NCBI GenBank assembly: GCA_905612525.1
Contig: CAJQSG010000030.1
Span: 1 to 43,373, forward strand
Direction: 5' to 3'
Origin: an uncultured Candidatus Pelagibacter sp.
GTDB lineage: Bacteria; Pseudomonadota; Alphaproteobacteria; Pelagibacterales; Pelagibacteraceae
DNA: 43,373 nucleotides
The translations under genes were made by a program, and so were the position numbers. This document shows, one piece after another, positions 14,248-40,830 of this stretch. Within the stretch, counting starts at the first letter, position 1, and every line of letters begins with the position of its first letter. The notes below the pieces were generated by a model. It did no database searches, was not told the origin of the DNA, and saw nothing but the letters and a program-made list of their open reading frames with translations.

Positions 14248-14285
14248 TAATTTAATGAATATTAACAGCCATAAATTACGAAAAG

Positions 14286-14362
14286 TGGCGGGAGTGAAGG
14301 GACTCGAACCCTCGACCTATCGCGTGACAGGCGATCGCTCTAACCAACTGAGCTACACCCCC
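14286..14362 (-). tRNA. tRNA-Asp (GTC)
   Basis: A 77-base cloverleaf on the minus strand with a CCA end encoded in the DNA. The acceptor GGGGGTG pairs with CACTCCC (one G-U), the D-loop region is TAGCTCAGTTGGTTAGAGC, the anticodon stem-loop has CTGTCAC with anticodon GTC, and the T-arm carries the GGTTCGAGTCC motif. It lies 11 bases downstream of tRNA-Val and ahead of nuoA, so the tRNAs and the nuo operon may share a transcript. Confidence 0.97.
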
Positions 14363-14373
14363 ACTTTAGTCTT

Positions 14374-14449
14374 TGGTGGGCAGTAAAGGACTCGAACCTT
14401 TGACCCCCTCGGTGTAAACGAGATGCTCTACCAACTGAGCTAACCGCCC
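14374..14449 (-). tRNA. tRNA-Val (TAC)
   Basis: A 76-base cloverleaf on the minus strand including an encoded CCA. The acceptor GGGCGGT pairs with ACTGCCC, the D-arm is TAGCTCAGTTGGTAGAGC, the anticodon loop TTTACAC gives anticodon TAC, and the T-arm contains GGTTCGAGTCC. A Val-Asp tRNA pair between lon and nuoA is a common alphaproteobacterial arrangement. Confidence 0.97.
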
Positions 14450-20667: not shown

Positions 20668-20919
20668 ATGATTATTTCACCCTGTATAAGCATATGTAAA
20701 ACTGATCCTAGGACAGGCTATTGTTACGGATGTGGTAGAAATAATGAAGAAAAGAAATTATGGAAATTAGAAGATACTTCCAATCAATGGAAGAGTGTTA
20801 ATTTGAACAATATTCAAAAAAGACTTACTGGATGGCAACTAGAAAGTTTTAAAGATTCATATAAATATAAAATAGAAAATGGTATTTCTCTGTTTAAAAA
20901 AAATTTAAATAATGAATAA
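20668..20919 (+). CDS. DUF1289 small cysteine-motif protein
   Basis: An 83-residue cytoplasmic protein. The N-terminus has the DUF1289 pattern SPCxxxCxxDxxxGxCxGCxR with Cys6, 10, 19 and 22, which suggests binding of zinc or an iron-sulfur cluster. The following WKxxNLNNIQKRLTGWQLESF part fits the family helix. No function is established for the family. It opens a three-gene plus-strand cluster whose members overlap by 8 and 14 bp. Confidence 0.85.
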   Translation: MIISPCISICKTDPRTGYCYGCGRNNEEKKLWKLEDTSNQWKSVNLNNIQKRLTGWQLESFKDSYKYKIENGISLFKKNLNNE

Positions 20920-21085
20920 ATCTACAGTAGTTATATTTATTTATGCATTGGGAATAATTTTTGGTGCCTTTTTTTTTAATGTTTGGGGTGCTGAGACATC
21001 ATTTGTAAAAACCATGTCAGTATTTATTTGGACAATTATTTTTTTAATAGCACTATTTTATACTGATAAACATGAAAAAAAATAA
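20912..21085 (+). CDS. Small two-helix membrane protein, unknown function
   Basis: A 57-residue open frame starting at an ATG that overlaps the end of the DUF1289 gene by 8 bp. Two hydrophobic helices (about residues 5-24 and 35-51) are separated by the short polar stretch WGAETSFVKTM, and the C-terminus is charged (TDKHEKK). The overlapping arrangement with genes on both sides and the clean membrane topology support it as real. I do not recognise a family. Confidence 0.6.
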   Translation: MNKSTVVIFIYALGIIFGAFFFNVWGAETSFVKTMSVFIWTIIFLIALFYTDKHEKK

Positions 21086-21504
21086 TTTTAGAACTGAGTT
21101 TTTTGTACTGTCATTTTTTTGTTTAATTTTCAAGGTATAGTTTTTTCAGAAATAATGCTTTTGACAGGATGTAAAAATTTAAATGATGGTTTTATTAAAA
21201 ATGAATACATTCTAGATTTTGAAAAATCTTTAATGATAAGAAATTATGTTTATGACAACAAAACATATAAAAATTATAAAAGAACAGACTTAAGTGTAAA
21301 GAAAGAGAATATTTTAGAATGGTTTGTGTATGAGGACAAAAATCTAATCTTTACAGATAAAATTGGTTACCCTCAATTTTACACTCAATTAGTTTTTGAA
21401 AAAAAAACCCTATAATTAATATTAGAACTGTAATTAATGGTGAAGAAGCTATTTCAAAAGTATCAACTTGTAATAAAGTAGAGCTTTTTGAAAAAGAAAG
21501 TTAA
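21072..21504 (+). pseudogene. Exported small protein with two apparent homopolymer frameshifts
   Basis: The reading runs across three frames. An ATG at 21072 opens a hydrophobic signal-like N-terminus (MKKNNFRTEFFVLSFF) that stops soon after a T7 run (21114-21120). One extra T would join it to the next frame (FNFQGIVFSEIMLLTGCKNL and onward to 21415). That frame stops just after an A9 run (21399-21407), and one extra A would join it to NPIINIRTVINGEEAISKVS through a TAA at 21502-21504. The repaired product is about 144 residues with an export signal, possibly a lipoprotein (LTGC). Both shifts have the same sign and both occur at homopolymers, so an under-called base, transcriptional slippage and a genuine pseudogene are all possible. 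No family recognised. Confidence 0.6.
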
Positions 21505-21647
21505 GACTTTTTTTTTGTAGCACTAACCTTGTTGGTCTTGATAATAAAATTTAATTTTTTTGCTCCAAATTTAGTGTTTGTAATATTACTTCGGTGCTTT
21601 GCAAAAGCTTGTTTTTGAGCTAGCTTCATTGCTTTTTTTGATGACAT
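21501..21647 (-). CDS. Short basic protein, 48 residues
   Basis: An ATG at 21647 gives MSSKKAMKLAQKQAFAKHRS at the N-terminus, then NITNTKFGAKKLNFIIKTNK and a Lys-rich end. About 13 of 48 residues are lysine and there are few acidic residues, so nucleic-acid or ribosome binding is plausible but unproven. Its TAA stop lies in the same TTAA as the stop of the converging plus-strand gene. It is too short for routine gene calling. I recognise no family. Confidence 0.5.
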   Translation of the reverse strand: MSSKKAMKLAQKQAFAKHRSNITNTKFGAKKLNFIIKTNKVSATKKKS

Positions 21648-24971: not shown

Positions 24972-26429
24972 TTATTTATTAGCCAATAGATAGTAAGTCA
25001 ATGAAGAGATAAAAGCTCCTATCATCCAAGAATAGGAGTGAAAACCCATTAAGTTTACGTTCCAAATTGTTGAGGCAGCAAAAATAAAACCCAATACTAA
25101 CGAATAGATAGCTTTTATGTGCCAACCATTAGAATAAAAATATAAACCATCACTTTCTAGAGAAAAAATATCTTTATTATCAAAATTAGTTTTTTTAACT
25201 AAATAATAATCGATAACCATGACACCAAATAGAGGTCCAAAAAAAGCACCAAAAGTATCCACAAATGCTAAAATTCCAATTTGACTTAATAACGGTAACC
25301 AAAAAATTCCAATAATAAAACCTAATACAGTAATAATCACTGCTGAAGTTTTTAGATTAAGCTTCGTTGGCATAAGGTTTAGCAATGTATTTTGTGTTGG
25401 AATATAGTTAGCAATTAAATTTGTAGATGCAGATGAAAAAATTATAAAAAATAAAACTACTACAGTTAATTCTGTATTATTAATTTTTCCAATTATATCT
25501 GTTGGGTTTGTTAAAATTCTTTCCATATTCTCTAAATTTTTATTTAGAAAAATATCTGCACCAATAACAATAAAGACAGCAAAAAATGAAAAAATTAATA
25601 AATTTAGAATTAAACTTAAATTTCCTTTTTTTAATTCATTCTCATTTTTTACATATCTGCTAAAATCACCATAATTTACTATGACAATTGAGAAATACGC
25701 AAAAACAGTACCCGCCACTGTGATTAGCGGAGCTAAATTACCTTTGTCAAAAAGATTATTAATTGAAAAAATATCTGCAAATGCTGCTGAAACAACTTTA
25801 ACATCATGCAGAAATACCACTAAAAAAAAAATCAGCATTCCCGAGTATACAATAACTGCTGAAAATCTTATAATAGATCTATTAAATTGATGACCTTTAC
25901 TAAATAAGAATGCTTGCAAAATAATAGTAAAAACAAAAGATACCCAATCAATAATATTTAATCCCAAAAAGAAAATTAAAAAAATATCATGATCTAAAAA
26001 AGTGCCATCAAAAGAAAAAATAAAAATTCTTATTAAAAAGCTAAATAATCTTGATAAAAAATAGGTTTGAATACCAAACATAAAAATACCAACCAAGCCT
26101 CTAAAGAGGCCAAAGTATTTTGCTCCCTTTACTCCTAAAGAGCTTCTTAAAATTACTAAAAAAGGTAGACCATATTTTTGTGATGGTTTTCCAATAAGGT
26201 TAGCAAAAAAATAGATAAAAACTGAAGCTATTAGAGTTCCAAATAAAACAACAAAAACATTTAACTCATAAACCAAATAAAGTGACGCTATAAGAGAAAA
26301 TCCAATTATACTTTGAATATTATTTCCCCAAAAACAGAATAAATCTTTCCAATCCCAAATTTTATCATTAGGATTCACTGAAACTAATTCCCAGTTAAGT
26401 AGACTATTTTTTGATTTATTTTGATTCAC
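24972..26429 (-). CDS. NCS1 family nucleobase/cation symporter-like permease
   Basis: A 485-residue inner-membrane transporter with about 12 hydrophobic helices. The N-terminal NPNDKIWDWKDLFCFWGNNI matches the NCS1 TM1 region. The QKYGLPFLVILRSSLGVKG segment (about 79-97) and FVDTFGAFFGPLFGVMVIDYY late in the protein are also NCS1-like. Known members carry cytosine, uracil, allantoin, hydantoins or thiamine; I cannot choose among them. It lies between dctM (25-bp gap) and the SDR gene (4-bp gap). Confidence 0.85.
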   Translation of the reverse strand: MNQNKSKNSLLNWELVSVNPNDKIWDWKDLFCFWGNNIQSIIGFSLIASLYLVYELNVFVVLFGTLIASVFIYFFANLIGKPSQKYGLPFLVILRSSLGVKGAKYFGLFRGLVGIFMFGIQTYFLSRLFSFLIRIFIFSFDGTFLDHDIFLIFFLGLNIIDWVSFVFTIILQAFLFSKGHQFNRSIIRFSAVIVYSGMLIFFLVVFLHDVKVVSAAFADIFSINNLFDKGNLAPLITVAGTVFAYFSIVIVNYGDFSRYVKNENELKKGNLSLILNLLIFSFFAVFIVIGADIFLNKNLENMERILTNPTDIIGKINNTELTVVVLFFIIFSSASTNLIANYIPTQNTLLNLMPTKLNLKTSAVIITVLGFIIGIFWLPLLSQIGILAFVDTFGAFFGPLFGVMVIDYYLVKKTNFDNKDIFSLESDGLYFYSNGWHIKAIYSLVLGFIFAASTIWNVNLMGFHSYSWMIGAFISSLTYYLLANK

Positions 26430-38153: not shown

Positions 38154-40662
38154 GCTTTCAGAGTACAAGTTGACTTTGGTATATGCCTTAAGAGACTTAA
38201 GCAGAAATTATAAAAAAATTTTTAGTATTATCTTAACACTTTTTATTAGTTTATTTATCTTAAGTTCAATTTTCACAATTGAAGATAGTTTAAACAAAGA
38301 ACTAAATAATAACTCAAGAGCACTTTTGGGTGGTGATATAGAAATTGATTACAATCGTAATGTTGTCAATTTAGATTTAATTAACCAAGTTAAAGAATTT
38401 GCTACTGTTTCTCAAATGGTTGAGTTTAGCACCATGATCTCAACTACTGATAAATCAATATTTTCCAGAATTAAAACAGTAGATGAAAATTACCCATTAT
38501 TTGGCAAAGTGGGTTATGAACCAAGTGGTGCATTTGAAAAGTTACAAACTACAGAAAACACAATACTTGTTAATGAAAATATTTTCAAAAATCTTAATTT
38601 AGAAATAAATGATAAAATCAAAGTTCAAGACAAACTTTTTACTGTAATTGGTATTGTAAAATCTGTGCCTGATATTGGGGGTGCTTTTGTATTTGGTGAT
38701 TTTGCCTTAGCAGGAAAACAAACATTAGAACTGTTAAAACTTAATAATTTAGGTAGCTTTTTAAACTATGAATATAAAGTAAAATTTAATGAGAGGGATA
38801 ATCCAAAAACTTTATCTAAAAGGATTGAACAATTATTTAAAGATGAAAAAAAAGTTAGACTTAGATATCATGAAAAATCTGATGGTCCTTTAAAGAGAAT
38901 AATTGATAATTTCTCTCAATTTTTGTCCCTTGTATCAATTAGCGCAATGTTAATTGCTGGAATTGGGATTGCTAACACCCTACTTTCATTCATAAATCAG
39001 AACAATATGTCTATAGCAGTTAAGAAGTCTTTAGGCTTTTTCTCAAAGGATATTAAAATAGTCTACTATCTACAATTACTCATTTTATTATTATTAATTT
39101 CTATCGCGGCCTACTCTTTTAGTTTCTTTCTAGTCCCTATTGTGGATGTTTATTTGTCAGCTGGTCTTGGGTTAAATATTGAAGGTAGTTTTTCTATTAT
39201 TAATTATTTCAAAGTTTTTTCAGTAGGTTTATTAGTATTAGTAATATTTTCTATACCAACCATTAATGCAATTGATCAGATTAAAGCTTCAAACTTGTTT
39301 CGTAATGTATTTCAAAACCTTCAGTTTTATTATTCTAAAAAATCAATCGTTTTAAGTCTATTTTTATTATCGATTTTGATTTCTTTATTTACTATTGGTT
39401 CAGCTCGACCCATTTTTAGCTTGGGTTATTTTGGAGCTTTCTTTGTTTGTCTATTGGTCTTCTATTTATTATCAAACTTAATTATTAAATTATTCAAAGG
39501 ACTTAAAGAGCATCCAAATATTTCAATTAAAGTATCGGTTAAAAATATCACTCAAACTAAAAGTATTACTCCTATAACTATTATGTCCTTAGGTTTAGGT
39601 GTCACCTTATTGTTAACTTTAGCTTTTGTTGGTTCAAACTTTAAAAGAGAAATTGCAAAATCTATACCAGAACTTGCTCCTGATTATTTTTTCATTGGTA
39701 TTCAAAACGATGAAAGGCAAATATTTGAAGATTTAATTTTTGATATGGATAAAGAAGCTAACCTTGAAGTTGTACCTATGGTCTCAACGGGTATTGTAAA
39801 AATTAATGGAATAGATCCAAATAGTTATATCGATTCGAGTAATGACAGCCACTGGGTAATTAGAAATGACAGAAGGTCTTCTTGGGCTGATAAAGTTTTA
39901 AAAGATAATCCGATTGTTGCCGGTGAATGGTGGGATTTAAGCAGACCTGATAAACTTCAAATTTCACTTGATAATAAAATTGCTAAAGATTTTAATATTG
40001 AAATTGGTGATATTTTTACACTAAATATTTATGGTCGTGAAATTGAAGGTGAGATCGTAAACTTTAGATTGGTTAACTACAGAGATTTTACTATTAACTT
40101 TGCAATGTTATTAAATCCTCAGTTTGCAAAAAATATACCTCATGAATATTTGGCCACTGCAAAGTTTAAAAGTTTAGAAAATTTTAACGAAATTGTCTTG
40201 TTGGATAAAATGCCTAGTCTTTCTATTATAAAAATTACTGATTACTTGGAAAAAGTAACCGATCTATTAAACAAAGTGTTTATTGCTGTAACTGTTATTT
40301 CCGCAATAACTATAGTCATTGGTTTAATTGTCATATCAAGCGCAATTATAGTTCAGGGAAAAATTAAAGAATTTCAAAACTTAATATTTAAAATTCTAGG
40401 CTTTTCTAAGGTTGAGGTTGTGCTCTCTTCAATCATTGAGTTTTTTATTATATTCACATCCATAATTCTAATAGCTCTATTTTTTGCAGTTATAGGTTCA
40501 CAATTTATCATCGAAAATATTTTCCAAATTACTTGGATGTTTGATTTGGCAATATTTTTAAAGGTAACTATTGGTATTGGACTTGCTACATTAATTTTAA
40601 TTATGATTACTAATTTTAAGTATTTAAGCCCTAAAGTTTACCCACTTATAAGAAATCAATAA
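38137..40662 (+). CDS. ybbP: FtsX-like ABC permease (YbbP type)
   Basis: An 841-residue membrane protein. I start it at the ATG at 38137; the frame is open from a TTG at 38101. It has an N-terminal helix (about 24-44) followed by a large periplasmic domain, two groups of three-helix FtsX domains (about 265-390 and 710-835), and a central pair of helices with a second periplasmic region. This fits YbbP, which is longer than LolC/E. The C-terminal end marks the boundary with a relic gene on the other strand. Confidence 0.88.
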   Translation: MEKLSKLSEYKLTLVYALRDLSRNYKKIFSIILTLFISLFILSSIFTIEDSLNKELNNNSRALLGGDIEIDYNRNVVNLDLINQVKEFATVSQMVEFSTMISTTDKSIFSRIKTVDENYPLFGKVGYEPSGAFEKLQTTENTILVNENIFKNLNLEINDKIKVQDKLFTVIGIVKSVPDIGGAFVFGDFALAGKQTLELLKLNNLGSFLNYEYKVKFNERDNPKTLSKRIEQLFKDEKKVRLRYHEKSDGPLKRIIDNFSQFLSLVSISAMLIAGIGIANTLLSFINQNNMSIAVKKSLGFFSKDIKIVYYLQLLILLLLISIAAYSFSFFLVPIVDVYLSAGLGLNIEGSFSIINYFKVFSVGLLVLVIFSIPTINAIDQIKASNLFRNVFQNLQFYYSKKSIVLSLFLLSILISLFTIGSARPIFSLGYFGAFFVCLLVFYLLSNLIIKLFKGLKEHPNISIKVSVKNITQTKSITPITIMSLGLGVTLLLTLAFVGSNFKREIAKSIPELAPDYFFIGIQNDERQIFEDLIFDMDKEANLEVVPMVSTGIVKINGIDPNSYIDSSNDSHWVIRNDRRSSWADKVLKDNPIVAGEWWDLSRPDKLQISLDNKIAKDFNIEIGDIFTLNIYGREIEGEIVNFRLVNYRDFTINFAMLLNPQFAKNIPHEYLATAKFKSLENFNEIVLLDKMPSLSIIKITDYLEKVTDLLNKVFIAVTVISAITIVIGLIVISSAIIVQGKIKEFQNLIFKILGFSKVEVVLSSIIEFFIIFTSIILIALFFAVIGSQFIIENIFQITWMFDLAIFLKVTIGIGLATLILIMITNFKYLSPKVYPLIRNQ

Positions 40663-40830
40663 TTTTTTGATTTGCATGAAGTTCTGATAATTTTCTAGCA
40701 GCGGATAAACCTGTGTAACCAGCACCTACTATTAACCAGTCACAGAATTCATTTTTTTCTAAAGTTTTTATATTAGATCTTGCATCAGGTCATTGATCCA
40801 ACCACACCTATTATCATTAACTACATTCAT
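40646..40830 (-). pseudogene. Decayed 5' end of an FAD-dependent oxidoreductase gene
   Basis: On the minus strand, 39 bp after the xsc stop, an ATG at 40830 reads MNVVNDNRCGWINDL. A one-base shift near 40785 then continues as PDARSNIKTLEKNEFCDWLI and VGAGYTGLSAARKLSELHAN before ending at about 40663, followed by an unrelated tail DFL and a stop. VGAGYTGLSAARKL is the N-terminal FAD-binding Rossmann motif of DadA/OrdL-type amine or amino-acid oxidoreductases. The remaining 300 or more residues are missing. The homology stops where the convergent ybbP gene ends, so a deletion joined the two. Confidence 0.75.

Follow-up and report, generated by a model that had tools for sequence, protein, structure and literature searches.

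A signal-peptide protein gene split by two one-base deletions in a draft Candidatus Pelagibacter assembly

Frameshifts at A/T runs have been described in AT-rich insect endosymbionts. In Blochmannia, poly(A)/poly(T) frameshifts occur without accelerated evolution and are thought to be rescued by transcriptional slippage (PMC3017870), and in Buchnera and E. coli longer runs bring exponentially more single-nucleotide insertions in transcripts (PMC5574713). A search for literature on homopolymer frameshifts in SAR11 returned nothing relevant. We analysed a stretch of 43,373 nucleotides (the window) from an uncultured Candidatus Pelagibacter sp., which is contig C30 of a draft assembly (G000; 802,203 bases in 53 contigs, 64.67% complete) and carries a gene broken by two one-base deletions. 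With the endosymbiont frameshifts (Blochmannia, Buchnera; PMC3017870) the window shares an AT-rich genome, one-base indels at A/T-rich sites and little decay. In contrast, it comes from a free-living lineage and a draft assembly, no relative shares its breaks, and its second lesion is most simply a T lost from between A runs. Indel errors of draft single-cell and metagenome assemblies offer another comparison, and the window's genome has in common with them mixed-sign one-base lesions at A/T runs, a lesion in an indispensable gene and local clustering, the last seen in a sister draft. The closest described proteins form an unnamed family (HTCC9565, NZ_LANA01000002, L152; RIS_SAG_65, L153; complete genome G012), which the window copy resembles in its length, signal peptide, KNEY, MxRN, TDLS and GYPQF motifs, two cysteines and overlap with a 57-aa gene, and from which it differs by the two one-base deletions.

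Three frames and two breaks

The target gene, its neighbours and the two break sites are as follows:
20668 to 20919, + strand: DUF1289 gene, intact in the window and frameshifted in two related drafts (G374, AG-337-P03)
20912 to 21085, + strand: gene for a 57-aa membrane protein, intact, with a 14-nt overlap with the target start
21072 to 21504, + strand: broken gene for a Pelagibacterales signal-peptide protein (~139–151 codons), 1 nt short at each of two sites compared with every close orthologue
21072 to 21140, + strand: first frame, which opens with the start codon, covers most of the signal peptide and ends in TAG at 21138–21140 (sequence read directly)
21114 to 21120, + strand: T7 run at or adjoining the first 1-nt deletion, where close relatives have ACA/GCA TTT TTA (alignment)
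21119 to 21415, + strand: second frame, the mature part, a 98-aa open reading frame that an annotator would call
21399 to 21407, + strand: A9 run, equal to the close relatives' A7-T-A2 minus the T (alignment)
21408 to 21504, + strand: third frame, the conserved C-terminus with the second conserved cysteine (STC), ending in TAA at 21502–21504 (partial family match 21346–21501, alignment)
21501 to 21647, − strand: conserved 48-aa gene, tail-to-tail with the target, intact in the window and frameshifted in G374

Read directly, the target ATG lies at 21072, a premature TAA at 21413–21415 and the final TAA at 21502–21504. The distance from ATG to final stop is 433 nt in the window and 435 nt in G166, G374, G179, G086, G007 and RIS_SAG_65, and the window copy therefore has two one-base deletions. 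A first-pass annotation, made from the letters alone, had proposed that the three frames are one signal-peptide protein broken twice in the same sense, and this proved correct on both counts. Joined, the frames give a single 144-codon signal-peptide protein, two bases below the expected length, whose end-to-end match to an orthologous family (61 relatives plus genus genomes searched) is far beyond chance. In a profile search the second and third frames each matched the same protein family, with the first frame supplying its signal peptide. The gene order from DUF1289 through the 57-aa membrane gene to the target is kept in relatives, as is the overlap at the start, so that the window copy sits in the family's usual position.

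The break sites were then compared by alignment with eight relatives of 74–91% DNA identity. At the second break, a T present in all eight is absent from the window (close relatives GAAAAAAATAAC, window GAAAAAAAAAC). Since every close relative has A7-T-A2 here (AAAAAAAT, or a sequence close to it among the aligned relatives), loss of the intervening T accounts most simply for the window sequence, rather than a miscounted homopolymer; alternatively, a T-to-A change may have been followed by the loss of one A. The first break sits where the signal peptide changes fast; close relatives read TCA ACA or GCA TTT TTA CTT and the window TCA TTTTTTTG TTT, so that the alignment does not single out the lost base. 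The earlier description of two broken homopolymers, to be mended by one T and one A, thus holds in part: the T7 and A9 runs are present and each break is a one-base deletion, but the second is a lost T and not a miscounted A, and for the first, loss of a T from the T7 run is just one of the possibilities, close relatives having no T8.

An accessory protein family under constraint

The target belongs to an unnamed Pelagibacterales family of predicted small, beta-rich exported proteins with two conserved cysteines. A protein search of 61 relatives returned eight open orthologues of 140–144 aa, and a profile search gave a family match in 136 of 399 genus genomes. Leaving out the window's genome, one weak match and five partial ones, these comprise ~129 full-length copies, none with an internal stop; only the window copy is interrupted by stops, and it matches the profile in two separate pieces. 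The best 80 of 282 relatives from a scan of named genomes are likewise all intact, in a list that favours intact copies, and the nearest genomes, 85–91% identical to the window, are intact where covered. The look at orthologues in sister genomes that the first-pass annotation had recommended therefore turned up no second broken copy, and orthologues that are consistently short and end at 21415 are excluded.

Neither Pfam nor NCBIfam holds a model for this family, and a PDB sequence search with the family protein returned nothing; a sub-threshold Pua-like match in one orthologue was discarded. An AlphaFold model of the family (mean pLDDT 85.5) has an N-terminal helix and a beta-rich domain. Compared with PDB and viral structures it gave no confident match (best E 0.015 and 0.0055, with low TM-scores), and so no fold was assigned.

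The window copy has the mature domain with two cysteines and GYPQF, and retains all 31 columns that are invariant among 53 family members. Owing to the two deletions it lacks the open frame of ~139–151 codons, and we therefore class it as broken (or mis-assembled) rather than as an intact member. With the two damaged codons masked, dN/dS over the mature part is 0.158 against G166, 0.157 against G374 and 0.187 against G086, next to 0.128 (G166–G086) and 0.135 (G374–G086) for intact pairs, and neighbouring genes give values of the same order. Such values, together with the 31 invariant residues kept, indicate that the gene has been constrained until now or very recently. Relaxed selection would move dN/dS towards 1, and the window's 0.16–0.19 lies near the intact copies, although a very recent event would not show. 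Changes along the window lineage number ~14.7 nonsynonymous to 7.3 synonymous (11 to 9 for G086; small counts) and include T81I and R84W, both at mostly conserved positions. This slight lean towards amino-acid changes does not decide between readings.

The family gene is accessory, being found in 24 of the 57 genomes that are at least 90% complete. In many genomes without a family match, DNA similarity ends where the 57-aa gene ends (query ~425–430), which argues that the gene was repeatedly lost or gained at that place. Seen from the locus (window 20912–21504 and its relatives), the exported-protein gene is patchy at a single junction while the overlapping 57-aa gene and DUF1289 are kept. Such a dispensable gene may have been truly inactivated in the window lineage, recently and by two replication-slippage deletions, as the first-pass annotation had allowed in listing a very young pseudogene. 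We regard this as a tentative second choice that still has to be reckoned with: the accessory status, the repeated loss or gain in the genus and the slight amino-acid excess are all consistent with it, and two lesions in one gene fit absent selection. Against it, no decay is seen, and since dN/dS is near the intact-copy values and no invariant residue has changed, the death of the gene would need to be very recent.

One-base lesions in this draft and its relatives

All readable G000 contigs were compared with the open reading frames of a complete genome of the same genus (G012; 1,343,202 bases); ten contigs below 3 kb read as N. Besides the target, four of 673 orthologue-like genes (plus weaker ones) carry a one-base break:
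C39 around 5165 (L047): rpsS (ribosomal protein S19), single copy, with A8 where the protein needs A7
C37 around 10530: SbmA/BacA-family gene, with T6 where T7 is needed
C46, 2400 to 2900 (L054): zinc-ribbon-like small gene, with A8 for A7 and a nonsense codon relative to G012
C34: SurA-like gene, with a one-base break

This amounts to ~6 one-base lesions in 0.54 Mb. The rpsS case weighs most: S19 is indispensable, and all 38 other genomes that gave a match have rpsS open; its lesion cannot be a real loss of function, which also counts against a young pseudogene at the target. The SbmA-like gene is broken only in G000; the other genomes in which a copy could be aligned have it intact, one distant, short G045 match being not comparable. 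The zinc-ribbon-like gene is perhaps a real pseudogene, as it has a nonsense codon on top of the frameshift. The signs of the lesions are mixed, with one base extra in rpsS and one base short in the SbmA-like gene and the target, a mixture that would be expected from errors but not from a slippage system. Nearly all of the ~1,700 other A/T runs of at least 7 in intact aligned G000 genes read in frame.

The scan also returned items of other kinds. An apparent break at 14282–14434 of the window is two tRNA genes read as protein, and several N-terminal "misses" are most simply over-extended starts in the G012 set and were left uncounted. At 40658–40830 of the window (− strand) lies a remnant of a ~434-aa FAD-dependent oxidoreductase-like gene, which G012 has in full; no more than about its first 58 residues can be made out in the window, and this looks like a genuine older gene loss. 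At two contig ends (C16, ~1–500, L025; C46, ~1–470, L054) gene order looks chimeric, with interrupted genes joined to unrelated sequence. Chimeric contig ends are common in whole-genome-amplified single cells.

As a control, we counted lesions in genes of this neighbourhood (tig, DUF1289, the 57-aa gene, the target, the 48-aa gene, SixA-like and UDG-like) across 109 distinct loci and 104,003 codons, the window's included. Five one-base frameshifts were found: two in the window, two in G374 and one in AG-337-P03. Without the window this is 3 lesions in ~0.31 Mb of codons from 108 other genomes, or ~10 per Mb, the same order as in G000, which is therefore not an exceptional draft. The related-draft lesions strike conserved genes. 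In the sister draft G374 (L262), DUF1289 has an extra A (1010–1238) and the 48-aa gene an extra T (1850–1994), less than 1 kb apart, and clustered one-base lesions thus do occur in such drafts; in AG-337-P03, DUF1289 is frameshifted, apparently by one A too many. Another related assembly (G261) carries the target-family gene twice on contig C8, at 211–630 (− strand) and 25288–25707 (+ strand), with the same score and opposite orientation, which suggests an inverted chimeric assembly.

Because ~129 full-length copies are intact and the same draft breaks rpsS, the loss of the two bases most likely arose in assembly or amplification; failing that, the gene died very recently. We lean towards the former, that both are assembly or amplification indels, a reading supported by rpsS, the background rate, the clustering in G374 and the intact constraint; the option of an assembly error raised by the first-pass annotation thus stands. 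The living cell would then have a normal, unbroken gene, the two bases having dropped out while the fragmented draft (53 contigs, ~65% complete) was amplified, sequenced or assembled. The gene would be transcribed together with the 57-aa membrane gene that it overlaps, and the predicted product would be exported through its signal peptide, cleaved near residue 26, and would fold in the periplasm into a small beta-rich domain in which the two invariant cysteines could pair as a disulfide. Against technical indels, two independent errors within 0.3 kb are improbable (by an estimate from six among 673 genes, ~5% for any gene to be hit twice, a figure tempered by the window having been chosen for being odd), nearly all of the other A/T runs are in frame, and the second lesion cannot be put down to a wrong run length alone.

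Recoding, the short frame and significance

Another reading is that the gene works though broken in the DNA, because RNA polymerase slips at A9/T7 or ribosomes shift to −1 and so recover the frame. A suitably framed −1 slippery heptamer, A-AAA-AAA, lies within the A run, constraint on the window copy is intact, and precedents exist in AT-rich endosymbionts (PMC3017870, PMC5574713). Yet neither break site is conserved in any relative, each product would need two independent events, one of them at a mere T7, and miscounting two homopolymers would not account for both lesions. RNA structure downstream of A9 is not above background (z = 0.13), leaving the slippery run with no stimulatory structure after it, and rpsS of this assembly would have to be corrected in the other direction. 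Programmed or transcriptional slippage, which the first-pass annotation had also put forward, is accordingly unsupported and unlikely, and we give recoding of the gene little credence. Less credible still is the broader version, in which both lesions are real, the full protein is made by slippage or recoding at A/T runs, and rpsS and the SbmA-like gene are corrected likewise, all in a free-living AT-rich bacterium. The idea that the true gene is the short frame stopping at 21415, with the downstream similarity due to chance, can practically be dismissed: this frame is the longest open reading frame at the locus (98 aa), but all of the ~129 full-length copies continue through the conserved C-terminus with its invariant second cysteine, which the window's third frame matches at E = 1e-10.

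Technical indels in an intact gene remain our preferred reading, and as a finding this is a minor one: double frameshifts in SAR11 drafts should not be taken as slippage or pseudogenes without reads, because one-base lesions occur at about ten per Mb in comparable genes of related drafts and have struck rpsS here. Slippage, if true, would extend an endosymbiont phenomenon to a free-living group, in which frameshifts would be tolerated as they are in insect endosymbionts. The analysis also defines an unnamed, accessory family of predicted exported proteins in a very abundant marine group.
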